A stretch of DNA of 64,000 nt from Amnibacterium setariae (GTDB lineage: Bacteria > Actinomycetota > Actinomycetes > Actinomycetales > Microbacteriaceae). Each line of letters opens with the position of its first letter. The stretch's first letter is position 1. Location of the stretch: contig NZ_QXTG01000001.1 in NCBI RefSeq assembly GCF_003581425.1, positions 310,001 through 374,000 on the forward strand, written 5' to 3'. The translations under genes and the position numbers were made by a program. Shown piece after piece: positions 37,630-43,119 of the stretch. Under the pieces are notes generated by a model that made no database searches, was not told the DNA's origin, and worked only from the letters and a program-made list of their open reading frames with translations.

Positions 37630-38850
37630 ATGCGGATCGCGATCACGGGGCTCGGCGCGGTCTCGCCGCTCGGGGACGGCGTGGAGGCGCTCTGGCAGGG
37701 GCTGCTCGCAGGCCGCAGCGGCGTGCGCGACCTCTCGCCGCTCGGGGAGGCGTGGGCGGCGCTGCCGATCCCGGTAGCCGCACCCGCCGACGTCGACGTC
37801 GAGGGCCGGCTCGGCCGGGTGGACGCCCGTCGGCTCGACCGGAGCCAGCAGCTCGCGCTCATCGCCGCCGCCGAGGCGTGGGCGGACGCGGGCGTGCCCG
37901 AGGTCGAGGGCGAGCGGTTCGCCGTCGTCGTCGGCACCGGCATCGGCGGGCTCGAGACCCTGCTCGGCCAAGACGACGTGCTCGAGGCCTCCGGCGCGCG
38001 CCGGGTGTCGCCCCGAGCCGTGCCCATGCTCATGCCGAACGGCGCCGCCGCGCAGATCAGCATCGCGTACGGCGCGGGCGCCGGCGTCTACACGACCGCG
38101 TCCGCCTGCGCCTCCGGCGCGGAGGCGATCGCGGACGCGGCGCGCCTGATCGCGACGGGGGAGGCGGACGTCGTGTTCGCGGGCGGGGTGGAGGCGTCCA
38201 TCGCTCCGCTGACCCTGGCCGCGTTCGCGCAGGCGCAGGCGGCGGCGAAGCCCGACGACGGCCCGGTCGACGCGCTCTCGCGCCCCTTCGACGCCGGCCG
38301 GCGCGGCTTCGTCCTCGGCGAGGGCGCGGGGATGCTCGTGCTCGAGAGCGAGGAGCACGCGGCGCGGCGCGGCGCCCGCGTCCGAGCCGTCCTCACCGGC
38401 TGGAGCGTCACCTCCGACGCGTTCCACATCACCGCGCCCGCCCCCGAGGGGCAGGGCCAGGTCCGCGCGATCCGGAACGCGCTCGCGATGGCCGGCGTCA
38501 GGCCCGAGGCGATCGACCACGTGAACGCCCACGCCACGGGCACGACGGTCGGCGACGTGATCGAGGCGGCCGCGATCGGCACCGCGCTCGGCGGTGCGCC
38601 GTCCGTCACCGCGCCGAAGGGCGCCATCGGGCACCTGCTCGGCGCCGCCGGCGCGGTCGAGGCGATCGTCGCCATCCGGACCATCGAGACCGGCCTGGTG
38701 CCGCCGACCCGCAACCTGGAGGCGCTCGACCCGGCCGTCGGGCTCGACGTCGTGACGGGGGAGCCGAGGCGGCAGGCCGTCCGTACCGCGCTCAGCAACT
38801 CCTTCGGGTTCGGGGGCCAGAACACCACCCTGATCCTCGCCTCCGCGTGA
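37630..38850 (+). CDS. Beta-ketoacyl-ACP synthase II (FabF-like), stand-alone
   Basis: A 406-residue thiolase-fold condensing enzyme: catalytic Cys160 in TASACASGAEA, His301 in NAHATGTTVGD, Lys330 and His335 in APKGAIGHLLGAAGA, and GFGGQN at the end. All active-site residues are present. No ACP, ketoreductase or dehydratase gene is nearby, unlike the main fab cluster, so it is probably an accessory elongation enzyme, perhaps adjusting membrane lipids. ATG 13 bp after the second operator. Divergent from its likely TetR repressor. Confidence 0.93.
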   Translation: MRIAITGLGAVSPLGDGVEALWQGLLAGRSGVRDLSPLGEAWAALPIPVAAPADVDVEGRLGRVDARRLDRSQQLALIAAAEAWADAGVPEVEGERFAVVVGTGIGGLETLLGQDDVLEASGARRVSPRAVPMLMPNGAAAQISIAYGAGAGVYTTASACASGAEAIADAARLIATGEADVVFAGGVEASIAPLTLAAFAQAQAAAKPDDGPVDALSRPFDAGRRGFVLGEGAGMLVLESEEHAARRGARVRAVLTGWSVTSDAFHITAPAPEGQGQVRAIRNALAMAGVRPEAIDHVNAHATGTTVGDVIEAAAIGTALGGAPSVTAPKGAIGHLLGAAGAVEAIVAIRTIETGLVPPTRNLEALDPAVGLDVVTGEPRRQAVRTALSNSFGFGGQNTTLILASA

Positions 38851-38902
38851 ACCGGCGGCGCTGCTCGGCGCACGTCAGGTCGGCGATGGATACATTCGGA
38901 CC

Positions 38903-39430
38903 ATCGACGTCGCCCTGATCGCCCTGCTCCTCGGTGCCATCGGCGCCGGGGTCGCCGTCGTGCTCGTGGTCCGGGCCGGGCGGCAGGCCGCCGGCGCGCC
39001 GGATCTCACCCAGGGCACGCTGCGCGTGCGCGCCGAGGTGCACACGGGTGTCGAGCAGGCGCTGATCGGCCTCACCCGCTCCCTCGCCCTCGTGGGCAGC
39101 CCCGGCGATGCCGCCTACGGGCAGATGTACCTCCGGCAGGTCGGCGACGAGGCGCTCGAGGTCGGATCGCGCTCGGAGATCCGGCGCGGCTTCCGGGCGA
39201 TGATCGTCGCGCGCCGGGGGCGGTCGGCGACGCACCTCGACTACTCGATCCTCCGGCTGCCCGGCGACGACTCCCTGCACGCGGCCGTGCTCCAGTTCGA
39301 GCTGCTGCTGATCGAGGCGATCCGGCGGCTGGACTCCGACGCGGACGTGCGCCTCGTGGGCCGCGCGCTGCGTGATCTGGACCGCACGGAGCGCACGCCC
39401 CTCGGCGAGCCGGGAGAATCGATGCGATGA
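38903..39430 (+). CDS. Uncharacterised one-TM protein coupled to the rhodopsin gene
   Basis: I do not recognise the family. The frame encodes an N-terminal TM helix (DVALIALLLGAIGAGVAVVL in outline) and a soluble domain of about 140 residues with RAEVHTGVEQALIGLTRSLALVG, QMYLRQVGDEALEVGSRSEIRRGF, RRGRSATHLDYSILRLPG and a C-terminal helix VLQFELLLIEAIRRLDSDADVRLV. There is no ATG, GTG or TTG that keeps the TM helix; the ATC at 38903 lies exactly 6 nt after TACATT (38891-38896), like the window's other leaderless starts. A GTG at 38960 would cut the TM helix in two. The stop overlaps the rhodopsin ATG (ATGA). Confidence 0.7.
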   Translation: MDVALIALLLGAIGAGVAVVLVVRAGRQAAGAPDLTQGTLRVRAEVHTGVEQALIGLTRSLALVGSPGDAAYGQMYLRQVGDEALEVGSRSEIRRGFRAMIVARRGRSATHLDYSILRLPGDDSLHAAVLQFELLLIEAIRRLDSDADVRLVGRALRDLDRTERTPLGEPGESMR

Positions 39431-40320
39431 ACGGGATGGACGTGCGGCCGCCGTGGACGGCGGTCCTGGCCGACGGGGAGCACACGCTGCTGCTCTTCGC
39501 GGTCGTCGCAGCCGCCCTCGCGCTGCTCGCGACCCTCGTGCGCATCCGCTTCGCGTCCGGCGAGGTCCAGGGCGAGTACCGGACGGCGAGCCTGACGGCG
39601 AACGCGGTCGTCGCGATCGCCCTCGCCTCCTACGTGCTCGTGCTCGTGTCGCTGATCATCGGCTACGACCGCGTCGGCGGCGGCTGGCGGCCGAACGAGT
39701 GGGCGTCCTTCGGCTGGGCCTTCCGCTACGCCGACTGGGCGATCACGGTGCCGCTGCTCGTGCTCGAGCTGATCGCCGTGAGCGTGATGGTCTCGGCCGA
39801 GCGGCAGATGCGCATCCGCGCCGCCGGCATGGCGCTCGCGTTCACGATGATCCTGCTCGGCTTCGTCGGCGGCTTCGTCGTCGAGGACGGCCGCAGCTTC
39901 ACCGCGCTCGCGGTGTTCGGCGGGCTCAGCGCGCTCTGCTTCCTGGGGCTCGCGATCCTCATCGTGCGGACGGCGCTGTTCACGCTGCCACGGCTCGCGC
40001 CGCACGCACGCCCGGCGTACCGCGCCTCGGTCGTGCTGCTGCTCGTCGTGTGGTTCGTCTACCCGATCGTCTACGGCCTGCAGGGCACGACGAGCGGCGG
40101 CGGCTGGGCGGTCACCGGCGCTGTCGCGCTCAGCGTGGCGGACGTGATCGCGAAGGTCGGCTTCGGGTCGCTCGTCCACCGCACCGCGGTGCTGCGCTCG
40201 CGCGCGGACGAGGAGGCGTCGCCCACCACCGAGCGCCGTCCGCGCCAGCCGGAGGCGGACCGCCTGTGGGTGGAGGACGGCTCCCGGTACACCGAGGACC
40301 GGGAGCTCTTCCGCGACTGA
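39427..40320 (+). CDS. Microbial rhodopsin, predicted light-driven proton pump
   Basis: A 297-residue seven-TM retinal protein. TM3 reads FRYADWAITVPLLVLELIAV: Arg100, Asp103 (proton acceptor, bacteriorhodopsin D85), Trp104, Thr107 (T89) and Glu114 (D96), i.e. a DTE motif as in proteorhodopsins. TM6 has WFVYP (Trp209, Tyr212, Pro213), and TM7 ADVIAKVGFG gives counter-ion Asp239 and retinal-binding Lys243. Leu111 at the spectral-tuning site suggests green absorption. No His pairs with Asp103 in TM2. A charged cytoplasmic tail of about 45 residues follows TM7. The 4-bp overlap couples it to the one-TM protein. The retinal-forming oxygenase is not in the window. Confidence 0.93.
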   Translation: MNGMDVRPPWTAVLADGEHTLLLFAVVAAALALLATLVRIRFASGEVQGEYRTASLTANAVVAIALASYVLVLVSLIIGYDRVGGGWRPNEWASFGWAFRYADWAITVPLLVLELIAVSVMVSAERQMRIRAAGMALAFTMILLGFVGGFVVEDGRSFTALAVFGGLSALCFLGLAILIVRTALFTLPRLAPHARPAYRASVVLLLVVWFVYPIVYGLQGTTSGGGWAVTGAVALSVADVIAKVGFGSLVHRTAVLRSRADEEASPTTERRPRQPEADRLWVEDGSRYTEDRELFRD

Positions 40321-40327
40321 TCGCGGA

Positions 40328-41356
40328 TCAGCGCCGCGGCGCGTCCTCCGGCTCGCTCGCGTGCCCGACCACGCCCGCCTCCGACGTCGGCGACGCGGTC
40401 GCTCCGGACCGACGGATCCGCTGGAGGCTCTCGGCCGGGGACTCGCCGAACTCGTCGCGGTAGTGCGTGGAGAACCGGCCGCCGTTCGAGTACCCGAACC
40501 GGCGGGCGACCTCGGCGACGGTGGTCCCGGAGGCGGCCTCGTCCTGCAGCGCCTGCCGCGCCGCCTCCAGCCGCAGCGCGCGCAGGTGCAGCAGCGGGGA
40601 GACGCCGAGCTGGCGGCGGAAGACCATCTGCAGCCCCCGCACCGAGACGCCGGCGGTCGCTGCGACCTCGGGGATCGAGATCGGGTCGGCGAGGTGCGCG
40701 CGCAGCTCGGCGAGCGCGCGGCGCAGCACGGCGGCGTCGCGGTCCTCCGCGTCCTCGCTGCGGTTCGTGAGCTCGAACGCCTCGACGGTGACGGCGCTCA
40801 GCAGGTCGATGGCGTGCGTGCGGACGAGGTCGCGGTCGTACACCTCTGGGACCCCGAAGACGTCGGCGGTGAGCAGGTGCGCCGCGCGGCGGAAGTACTC
40901 CGCGAGCTCCGGGGAGCGCGGCTCGATCCGCGGCGCGTGCAGCTGCACCCGGTGCTTCGGCACCCCGAGCAGGCGGGCGAGGGGAGCCGGCGGGAACGAG
41001 AAGACCTCGATGTCCGCGCGGTTCGTCCGCAGCTGGGCGTTCGCGTCGATCGGCACGAGGCCGAGCCCGCCCGCGCCGAGCTCGGCGTCGAAGTCGCCGT
41101 TGCGCAGCTGCACGCGGCCCTCGCGGACGTGGACGACCAGCAGCTCGGTCGCGCGGGCGATGCCGAGGTGCACGGCGTCCCCGGCGATCTGGATGCGGGA
41201 GACGGAGATCCCGTCGTCGACGATCGAGGCCTGCTTCCACGCCATCTCGGCGCCGCGCATGGTGACCTCGGCGGAGCCGAGCACCGCGCGAGCGGCCGTC
41301 GTCGCCGCGCTCGCGTCCGTCGCGGTGTAGGTGAGCCGGAGGAGGCTGTCGATCAT
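40328..41356 (-). CDS. AraC-family transcriptional regulator
   Basis: A 342-residue regulator with an AraC_binding_2-type N-terminal domain (AGGLGLVPIDANAQLRTN...FSFPPAPLARLLG) and a C-terminal double HTH: ISIPEVAATAGVSVRGLQMVFRRQLGVSPLLHLRALRL and TTVAEVARRFGYSNGGRFSTHYRDEFGESPAESL. ATG at 41356 follows TAAGGT (41363-41368, minus strand) by 6 nt. Convergent with the rhodopsin gene, 7 bp apart; whether it controls the rhodopsin is unknown. Confidence 0.92.
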   Translation of the reverse strand: MIDSLLRLTYTATDASAATTAARAVLGSAEVTMRGAEMAWKQASIVDDGISVSRIQIAGDAVHLGIARATELLVVHVREGRVQLRNGDFDAELGAGGLGLVPIDANAQLRTNRADIEVFSFPPAPLARLLGVPKHRVQLHAPRIEPRSPELAEYFRRAAHLLTADVFGVPEVYDRDLVRTHAIDLLSAVTVEAFELTNRSEDAEDRDAAVLRRALAELRAHLADPISIPEVAATAGVSVRGLQMVFRRQLGVSPLLHLRALRLEAARQALQDEAASGTTVAEVARRFGYSNGGRFSTHYRDEFGESPAESLQRIRRSGATASPTSEAGVVGHASEPEDAPRR

Positions 41357-41444: not shown

Positions 41445-42260
41445 CTAGCGGGTCTCGCGGGTGGTCCGGCCGTCGTCGTCCGTCGTGATCTCCTCGTGGC
41501 GGACGTCCTCGGTGACCTGCTGCTGGTCGGTCACCGTCTCCTTGTCGAGGCGCACGCGCTCGACCGGCACGGTCTCCTTCTGGACCACGGGGCGCTCCTC
41601 GGTCAGGACGACCTCGTGCTCCTCCTCCGACAGGTCCGGGCCGGCGAGCGCCTCGCCGCGGTTCGCATCGGTGATCGGCTCGCGCTCGAGCCGCACCTCC
41701 TCGTGCTGCACCGGCACGGTGACGCTCTGCTGCTCGGTCACGACGTGCTTGCGGAGGCGGGCGCGGCCGGTCTCGACCTTCTGGGTGCCGACGTTGAGCC
41801 GCTCCTCCGAGCGCGTCATCGCGTCGTCCGTCGTCGGGCCGGAGGTGTCGTGCCCGACCGTGCCGCGGTCGGTCGTCGTGTCGAAGCCGGCGCCGCGGTC
41901 CGTGCCGATGCCGGACGGGGTGCCTCCGACGCCGGCCGCGGCACCGCCCGCGCGGCCGTCGTAGTAGTCGAACAGGCTCGCCTGCTCCTCGTCCGCCAGG
42001 TGCCCGTCGTCGTCGATGTTCGGCGCGCCCTTGATGGTGTCCTTGTCGTACTGCACGCGCAGGGTGTCGCCCTCGAGGGCGGCGCCCTGGAGCGGGACGA
42101 ACGACTGCTTCGTGCCGAACAGGCCGGTGTGCACGGTCACGAACAGCGGCTGGCGGCCGTCGTCCGAGACGTACACCTGGCCGATGCGGCCGAGCCGGTC
42201 GCCGTCGCGGTCCACGGCGGTCGAGTGGTACAGGGCGTCGATGTCGTTGATGTCGACCAT
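41445..42260 (-). CDS. PRC-barrel / DUF2382 stress-response protein
   Basis: A 271-residue hydrophilic protein: a PRC-barrel-like N-terminal domain (STAVDRDGDRLGRIGQVYVSDDGRQPLFVTVHTGLFG), a Gly/Thr/Asp linker, and a C-terminal DUF2382 domain with repeated RLRKHVVTEQQSVTVPVQHEEVRLEREPI and ERPVVQKETVPVERVRLDKETV elements. Similar to YsnF-type general-stress proteins. Cytoplasmic. ATG with AAGGAG 6 nt upstream; exact function unknown. Confidence 0.9.
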   Translation of the reverse strand: MVDINDIDALYHSTAVDRDGDRLGRIGQVYVSDDGRQPLFVTVHTGLFGTKQSFVPLQGAALEGDTLRVQYDKDTIKGAPNIDDDGHLADEEQASLFDYYDGRAGGAAAGVGGTPSGIGTDRGAGFDTTTDRGTVGHDTSGPTTDDAMTRSEERLNVGTQKVETGRARLRKHVVTEQQSVTVPVQHEEVRLEREPITDANRGEALAGPDLSEEEHEVVLTEERPVVQKETVPVERVRLDKETVTDQQQVTEDVRHEEITTDDDGRTTRETR

Positions 42261-42483
42261 GGGGGTCTCCTTCGTTCCTCGGGTCGTGCCGCGGTCAGGC
42301 CTCATCCGGGCGGGCCGCTCTTCGGTCCACTGACCCAGTCGCGGCCGCACGTCTGCTGGGCGTCCGGGGTGCACCGCCTGGGCGTGCGCGATCGGTCGCT
42401 CGAGACTGGGCCCGGCCCGGTCGTCGGCTCCGAAAGCGCCGCGGAGACCGCGGCGGCGGGTGCTCCGGTCGTACGGTCCGGCC

Positions 42484-43119
42484 ATGAGCGACGAGCACGA
42501 CGACCGCCCGAGCGAGCGGACGACCGCGGTGGCAGCGGGAGGGGACGCTCGCCTGTCCTCGCCGCGGACCGACGCCGCGGTGGAGCGCGACCGCGCCCTG
42601 GCGCGCGAGCGCGAGCAGTTCTCCGGCATGCGCTTCTTCCTCGGCTTCTTCGGCTGGCTCACCGCGACCGGCCTCACGGTGCTGCTGCTCGCGGTCGTCA
42701 GCGCGATCGCCGCGCTGGCGGGCGTGCAGGACGCCGCCGGTTCGCAGCCGTCCGCGGTCGGGATCGGCGGCGCGATCGTGCTGCTCGTGGTGCTGCTGAT
42801 CGCCTACTTCTGCGGCGGCTACGTCGCCGGCCGCATGGCGCGCTTCAGCGGCCTCAAGCAGGGGATCGCCGTGTGGCTGTGGGCGGTGATCGTCGCGGTC
42901 GTCCTCGGCGTCGTCGGCGCGATCGCCGGTGCGCAGTCCGGCGTCGTGAACCAGCTCGGCAGCGTCGCGCAGCTGCCGTTCTCCTCCTCGCAGCTCACCG
43001 TGGGCGGCATCGTGAGCGCGCTCGCCGTGCTCGTCGTCACGCTGATCGGCGCCCTGCTCGGCGGCCTCGCCGGCATGCGGTACCACCGCCGGGTCGATCG
43101 GGCCGGCGCCGCCGCCTGA
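42484..43119 (+). CDS. Integral membrane protein, four TM helices
   Basis: A 211-residue protein: hydrophilic N-terminus to about residue 45, then TM segments about 48-80 (RFFLGFFGWLTATGLTVLLLAVVSAIA in outline), 93-118, 126-147 and 176-198. The FCGGYVAGRMARFSGLKQGIAVWLWA loop resembles the YrzE/TIGR04086-like families of unknown function. ATG lies 6 nt after a TACGGT -10 (42472-42477), so the mRNA is probably leaderless. The gap 42261-42483 upstream holds nothing else recognised. Confidence 0.8.
   Translation: MSDEHDDRPSERTTAVAAGGDARLSSPRTDAAVERDRALAREREQFSGMRFFLGFFGWLTATGLTVLLLAVVSAIAALAGVQDAAGSQPSAVGIGGAIVLLVVLLIAYFCGGYVAGRMARFSGLKQGIAVWLWAVIVAVVLGVVGAIAGAQSGVVNQLGSVAQLPFSSSQLTVGGIVSALAVLVVTLIGALLGGLAGMRYHRRVDRAGAAA

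Follow-up and report, generated by a model that had tools for sequence, protein, structure and literature searches.

A one-helix membrane protein family encoded beside cryorhodopsin-related rhodopsins in Amnibacterium, with Ser/Thr kinase genes at some of its loci

A microbial rhodopsin gene of Amnibacterium setariae is directly preceded by, and overlaps, a gene for a small membrane protein, here called P, and the two may well be members of a dedicated pair: P genes are linked to rhodopsin genes and, among the genomes searched, are restricted to the genus Amnibacterium. The partner differs from that of the cryorhodopsins (CryoRs), the closest solved relatives of this rhodopsin, and at other loci in the genus the pair is linked to Ser/Thr kinase genes. 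From these sequence comparisons we give about an even chance to the reading that we favour, in which a photosensor rhodopsin has P as its membrane-anchored partner and a kinase as its output. The DNA analysed (the window) is a stretch of 64,000 nucleotides, and its features are collected in Table 1.

Table 1. Features at the P-rhodopsin locus, in window coordinates.
Feature	Position	Strand	Basis or remark
Possible -10 element, TACATT (weak)	38891..38896	+	TANNNT 6 nt before the inferred ATC
P (one-TM protein, ~175 aa)	38903..39430	+	Coding signal; start inferred from homologues
ATGA overlap, P stop (TGA 39428-39430) / rhodopsin start (ATG 39427-39429)	39427..39430	+	
Rhodopsin, 297 aa, intact	39427..40320	+	Pfam PF01036 Bac_rhodopsin
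AraC-type regulator, convergent with rhodopsin; a neighbour, not assigned to the module	40328..41356	-	PF12833, 70.6 bits

The original prediction described P as a membrane protein of no nameable family that starts at 38891. Its lack of a family stands, as P has no relative in Pfam, NCBIfam or the PDB, no P member comes near a curated Pfam cut-off, and the best matches in a PDB profile search (E 0.84 and 0.95) were at chance level. The start has to be moved, as the homologues begin just before the hydrophobic helix, which points to the ATC at 38903, 12 nt downstream of 38891. The frame holds no ATG, GTG or TTG before the GTG at 38960, which sits inside P's only hydrophobic helix, and a start there would remove most of that helix. 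We therefore take the non-canonical ATC as the probable start; the aligned start codon of the A. kyonggiense P is also ATC, and its upstream layout (TAACGT-N6-ATC) is shared with the window gene. The P mRNA may be leaderless and start at AUC; a sigma-70 scan of 38700-40500 found no promoter, and the leaderless start is therefore only a suggestion. Comparison of P with its A. kyonggiense orthologue over 169 aligned codons gives 30, 23 and 67 differences at codon positions 1, 2 and 3, and from this pattern and the N-terminal hydrophobic helix P looks like a real gene. The protein has a short N-terminus and a TM segment at about residues 5-23, after which comes a domain of some 150 aa. In all nine aligned P members the one hydrophobic helix, which is N-terminal, scores 2.7-3.1 (Kyte-Doolittle) and is flanked C-terminally by Arg, and by the well-established positive-inside rule this Arg should place the soluble domain in the cytoplasm.

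Full-length P was found in all seven Amnibacterium genomes sampled (the 3.48 Mb window genome, G000; A. kyonggiense DSM 24782; A. sp. CER49; and MAGs), with nine P genes in all, and in none of the 391 other Microbacteriaceae genomes of a 398-genome family sample. Weak partial matches occur in 22 of those 391 (E 9.2e-5 to 9.9e-4); the one inspected (L063) falls in a frame that we read as RuvC-like, and for this reason all 22 were treated as chance. At E <= 1e-5 only the window genome matched among 396 order and 396 phylum genomes, samples that share genomes with one another and with the family sample, take in part of the genus, and had at most 8 candidates scored per genome. A pattern scan of GTDB-based contigs for P gave 98 stretches and, from these, seven confirmed loci, all on contigs of Amnibacterium members. 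One contig with an Amnibacterium P locus (JABBOB010000031.1, L041) belongs to a MAG titled Acidobacteria, a title that looks wrong because a genome search places this genome (G004) in Amnibacterium.

The seven genomes carry 11 rhodopsin genes. Of the nine P genes, eight have one of these at a distance of about 1.4 kb or less, so the expectation that homologues of P would accompany rhodopsins held up. The pairs occur in three relative arrangements. The ATGA overlap described for the window pair is indeed present in the sequence, and a 4-nt overlap is found at one further locus (G001C1), that is, at two of eight; at another (G006) the genes are co-directional with a 115-nt gap. The remaining pairs (5/8) are convergent, either abutting (G003, with a 73-nt overlap, and G005, 15 nt apart) or separated by 1388-1401 nt with a kinase gene between (G001C2, G004C96 and G000C2, the last being a second P-rhodopsin copy in the window genome). 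Thus the linkage of P to rhodopsin stands, but P does not always precede its rhodopsin; and roughly equal amounts of the two proteins, which the original prediction had drawn from the ATGA coupling, cannot be general because most pairs are convergent. The ninth P (G002:C242) adjoins a kinase gene on a 7-kb contig on which no rhodopsin match better than E 0.2 appears among the matches listed; its genome is an incomplete assembly of 350 contigs. Three Amnibacterium rhodopsins (G001C3, G002C52 and G004C116) have no P alongside on the stretches examined, but for the latter two the contig is short or its end is close by.

The window protein is a microbial (type 1) rhodopsin by both profile and residue, with a Bac_rhodopsin score of 84.2 bits (cut-off 24.6; E 1.2e-23) and the retinal-binding Lys of helix G, K243. 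Positions 58, 100, 103, 107, 114, 239 and 243 are A, R, D, T, E, D and K, and the last six agree in numbering and identity with those of the original prediction, which read them as a DTE-type proton pump. The counterions and donor of such a pump (D103, E114 and D239) are all present; they would be expected of a pump yet are insufficient to prove pumping. The pump claim is thus upheld as to its residues, but the CryoR group, which includes the DTE member CryoR5, is read as UV sensors (below), and a proton pump is a possible function of the window rhodopsin. Near the rhodopsin, at 41445-42677 on the minus strand, is a gene for a PRC-barrel and DUF2382 protein, which we take to be a stress-type gene.

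The best solved relatives of the window rhodopsin are 8r0k (E 1.9e-47) and 8r0p (E 4.2e-47), followed by xanthorhodopsin (E 5.7e-20). The second of these is named CryoR2; 8r0k is named only Rhodopsin, and we take it to be CryoR1 because its Arg57 fits. Lamm et al. (2025, PMC12227055) define CryoRs (CryoR1-5) by an Arg that corresponds to BR T46 (R57 of CryoR1) and by an RRXXXDK motif, describe them as having a very slow photocycle with a long-lived UV-absorbing state, and read them, CryoR5 included, as UV sensors; they show inward proton movement for CryoR1. The window rhodopsin has Ala58 in place of this Arg, which is present in none of the 11 Amnibacterium rhodopsins.

For comparison we used all 33 rhodopsins outside Amnibacterium that scored 62-110 bits in the family sample of 398 genomes, each taken together with 5-9 kb of surrounding DNA; higher scorers (nine of them used as outgroup) and fragments (two in G412; one each in G364:C158, G109, G077 and G087) were left out of this superclade set, and the incomplete L108 and L109 were excluded from the tree. 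In the tree the eight P-linked rhodopsins form one clade (support 98/93), and the 23 Arg-bearing rows form a separate one (97/99) with the window row outside it. The P-linked clade groups (97/98) with eight rhodopsins that lack both the Arg and a P gene (L082, L084, L086, L089, L091, L095, G001C3 and G002C52). A grouping with actinorhodopsins, which had been raised as a check, is not what the tree gives: the window row falls in the CryoR superclade, outside the Arg-bearing CryoRs, and stands apart from the rows that we label actinorhodopsin-like. Lamm et al. give the DSE rhodopsins (Marin et al. 2023), which are without the CryoR Arg, as the closest relatives of CryoRs (PMC12227055). D-S-E is found in five of the eight P-linked rhodopsins (G000C2, G001C2, G004C96, G003 and G005), whereas the window rhodopsin has D-T-E and so lies outside the D-S-E definition of that group, as cited in PMC12227055.

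The original prediction held that a dedicated partner protein for a rhodopsin would be new. As a kind such partners are known, since in Lamm et al. (PMC12227055) the putative transducer of CryoR is the product of an adjacent gene, DUF7882 (PF25355), predicted to be a pentameric PH-like ring that binds the rhodopsin C-terminus, with a short C-terminal strand of CryoR predicted to join the DUF7882 sheet. What would be new is an unrelated, membrane-anchored putative partner family, P, in a neighbouring clade. Among the 33 rhodopsins outside Amnibacterium, DUF7882 is adjacent to all 25 that bear the Arg and to none of the eight that do not; these matches rest on four reference sequences, Pfam bears out 10 of the 25 (for L094 and L081 on a partial stretch), and that at L108 is weak and partial (34 bits). 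By our reading the DUF7882 gene lies upstream and co-directional in 23 cases and downstream and convergent in two (L088 and L098), and P occupies these same two kinds of slot. P was nevertheless rejected as a DUF7882 homologue, as it has no PF25355 match and hhalign gives a probability of 0.1% (E 0.64). The eight non-Arg superclade rhodopsins outside the genus have neither P nor DUF7882 adjacent, so superclade rhodopsins can do without a partner. All seven Amnibacterium genomes contain DUF7882, with 20 matches in total (up to 8 in one genome, two of them maybe pieces of one gene). All of them either share no contig with a rhodopsin or lie some 52 kb or more from it, and DUF7882 thus seems to have rhodopsin-independent roles too.

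The rhodopsin C-termini follow the same division. By our reading, a V[YFH][LI] stretch (EVYLAEG and variants) follows a SIWIS-like motif in all 23 Arg-type rhodopsins with complete C-termini, and in none of the eight non-Arg rhodopsins outside the genus or the eight P-linked ones; we infer that this stretch is the strand predicted to join the DUF7882 sheet. The SIWIS-like motif itself is uninformative on P binding because it is common to rhodopsins with and without a partner. The window pair therefore resembles the CryoRs in its family, Microbacteriaceae, in having them as closest solved rhodopsins, and in having a small partner gene that adjoins or overlaps that of the rhodopsin, in the same kinds of slot, but differs in lacking both the Arg and the EVYLAEG-like stretch and in its partner, a one-TM protein of undetectable homology to DUF7882, which PMC12227055 gives as water-soluble. 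Another system in which a rhodopsin is co-encoded with a membrane-anchored transducer is sensory rhodopsin. Its transducer, Htr, is a two-TM protein that carries an MCP signalling domain, whereas P has a single TM and lacks a named domain.

A Ser/Thr kinase gene follows the rhodopsin closely at four of the eight P-rhodopsin loci, with gaps of 25 nt (G000C2 and G001C2), 3 nt (G006) and, at G004C96, 58 nt by the gene finder or about 22 nt from the start homologous to that of G000C2. A kinase gene is present within six of the nine P loci, and at G001C1, where the kinase is identified by BLAST and PF00069, it lies beyond an opposed polyprenyl synthetase gene. The window, G003 and G005 loci have a rhodopsin but no matching kinase within the 12-13 kb examined. 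GAF_2 is matched in the G000C2 kinase (28.8 bits, cut-off 28.6), to which the G001C2 kinase is 82% identical, and in that of G004C96 (30.5 bits), and is not matched in that of G006. In the kinase tree G000C2, G001C2, G004C96 and G002 form one clade (100/100), and G006 and G001C1 belong to another (100/99) that includes G000 C2:1195533; a sister relation or common origin of the two kinase types, A and B, is unsupported in this comparison. This last gene (G000:C2:1195533-1196279) is an orthologue of the type-A rhodopsin-linked kinase and is unlinked from the window P-rhodopsin pair. The G002 locus (L030:3273-6911) has the kinase-kinase-P order of the G004 locus minus the rhodopsin, with 215 nt between the kinases. 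Some kinase neighbours are likely to occur by chance, since the three genomes counted have 17-18 kinase matches each; the repeated close, co-directional placement of kinases of two groups argues against chance, although three of the four loci are orthologous. The kinase gene behind the rhodopsin at half of the loci may be taken as favouring sensing over pumping, but the window locus has no kinase and the G002 P stands by a kinase without a rhodopsin. Heliorhodopsins are linked to histidine kinases in PMC8612252; among the literature matches listed there was no report that links microbial rhodopsins to Ser/Thr kinases. In the literature searched, no work joins Amnibacterium with rhodopsin or opsin, and DUF7882 comes up in a single paper.

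Genes for retinal supply were also surveyed. BCD is present in three of the seven Amnibacterium genomes and absent from the window genome, which, like G002, has an RPE65-family oxygenase; G006, rated 100% complete, has neither. BCD adjoins none of the P-linked rhodopsins. Other Microbacteriaceae rhodopsins, in the same supported group as the P-linked clade, differ in this respect and have no P: of the 10 superclade rhodopsins with neither the Arg nor a linked P, 6 have a gene for lycopene cyclase and/or BCD next to them. BCD is confirmed at L084, L086, L095 and G001C3; lycopene cyclase is confirmed at L084, L086, L089, G001C3 and G002C52. PMC7734400 describes bacteria that have a rhodopsin yet lack any known gene for retinal, so retinal may be taken up. 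The G001C3 rhodopsin (L025:4727-5677) loses its frame before the retinal Lys and looks broken; the G002C52 gene is 93% identical to it and has that Lys. Two of the genus rhodopsins without P have a divergent gene with a LuxR-type DNA-binding domain (L025:5684-6376 and L031:4158-4838; the domain was scanned in L025), and by eye similar genes lie near L082 and L086.

In the favoured reading P would be a membrane-anchored cytoplasmic transducer or adaptor, in the role that DUF7882 has for CryoRs. Light would alter the cytoplasmic face of the rhodopsin, the soluble domain of P, held near the membrane, would sense this change, and the signal would pass from P to a cytoplasmic Ser/Thr kinase, such as that encoded directly after the rhodopsin at four other Amnibacterium loci; the kinase orthologue nearest to the window pair is elsewhere in the genome. 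The P-rhodopsin contact, the sensing and the kinase as output are what we infer; against them stand the window locus without a kinase, the G002 P with a kinase but no rhodopsin, and the presence of all the pump residues. A fuller version, in which a CryoR-type photoreceptor with an unrelated membrane-anchored partner is wired to a Hanks-type Ser/Thr kinase as a rhodopsin-controlled phosphorylation pathway of one genus, is offered tentatively, and we would sooner doubt it than not.

The pump residues may instead be taken at face value, with the rhodopsin an outward proton pump and P an accessory subunit for its assembly, oligomer formation or regulation. The complete DTE motif with donor Glu, counterions and Lys, the missing CryoR Arg, and the energy-type arrangement of the relatives that stand beside lycopene cyclase and/or BCD would all fit, but the window genome has no BCD, kinase genes lie behind the rhodopsin at four other loci, and D-T-E occurs also in CryoRs, which PMC12227055 reads as UV sensors, with inward proton movement shown for CryoR1; we think this main alternative unlikely. 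It is also conceivable that P belongs with the kinase, as an anchoring or regulatory protein for which the rhodopsin is one interchangeable input. This would account for the G002 contig, where P adjoins a kinase gene and a rhodopsin is found neither between the two nor next to them, and for the kinases within most P loci; yet that assembly is fragmentary, and three of the nine P loci (the window's among them) have a rhodopsin and no matching kinase, which makes this quite improbable to us. Finally, P and rhodopsin might be neighbours co-inherited in one genus without a functional tie, as the confinement of P to one genus of seven genomes and the same three groups in the P and rhodopsin trees, such as vertical descent would give, could suggest. 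We consider this very improbable, because adjacency is retained through three different relative arrangements, the ATGA overlap is conserved between two species, and the three genus rhodopsins outside the clade (two on short contigs) have no P on the stretches examined.

The Ser/Thr kinase link, if true, would connect microbial rhodopsins with a type of signalling chemistry for which the literature matches listed contain no report. The proposal that CryoRs are UV sensors rested partly on one partner family; a second, unrelated family, combined with the way in which the Arg, the C-terminal stretch and DUF7882 occur or are missing jointly, allows the transducer idea to be tested independently, and the P-linked and CryoR clades form a natural comparison for mapping the part of the rhodopsin that binds its partner.
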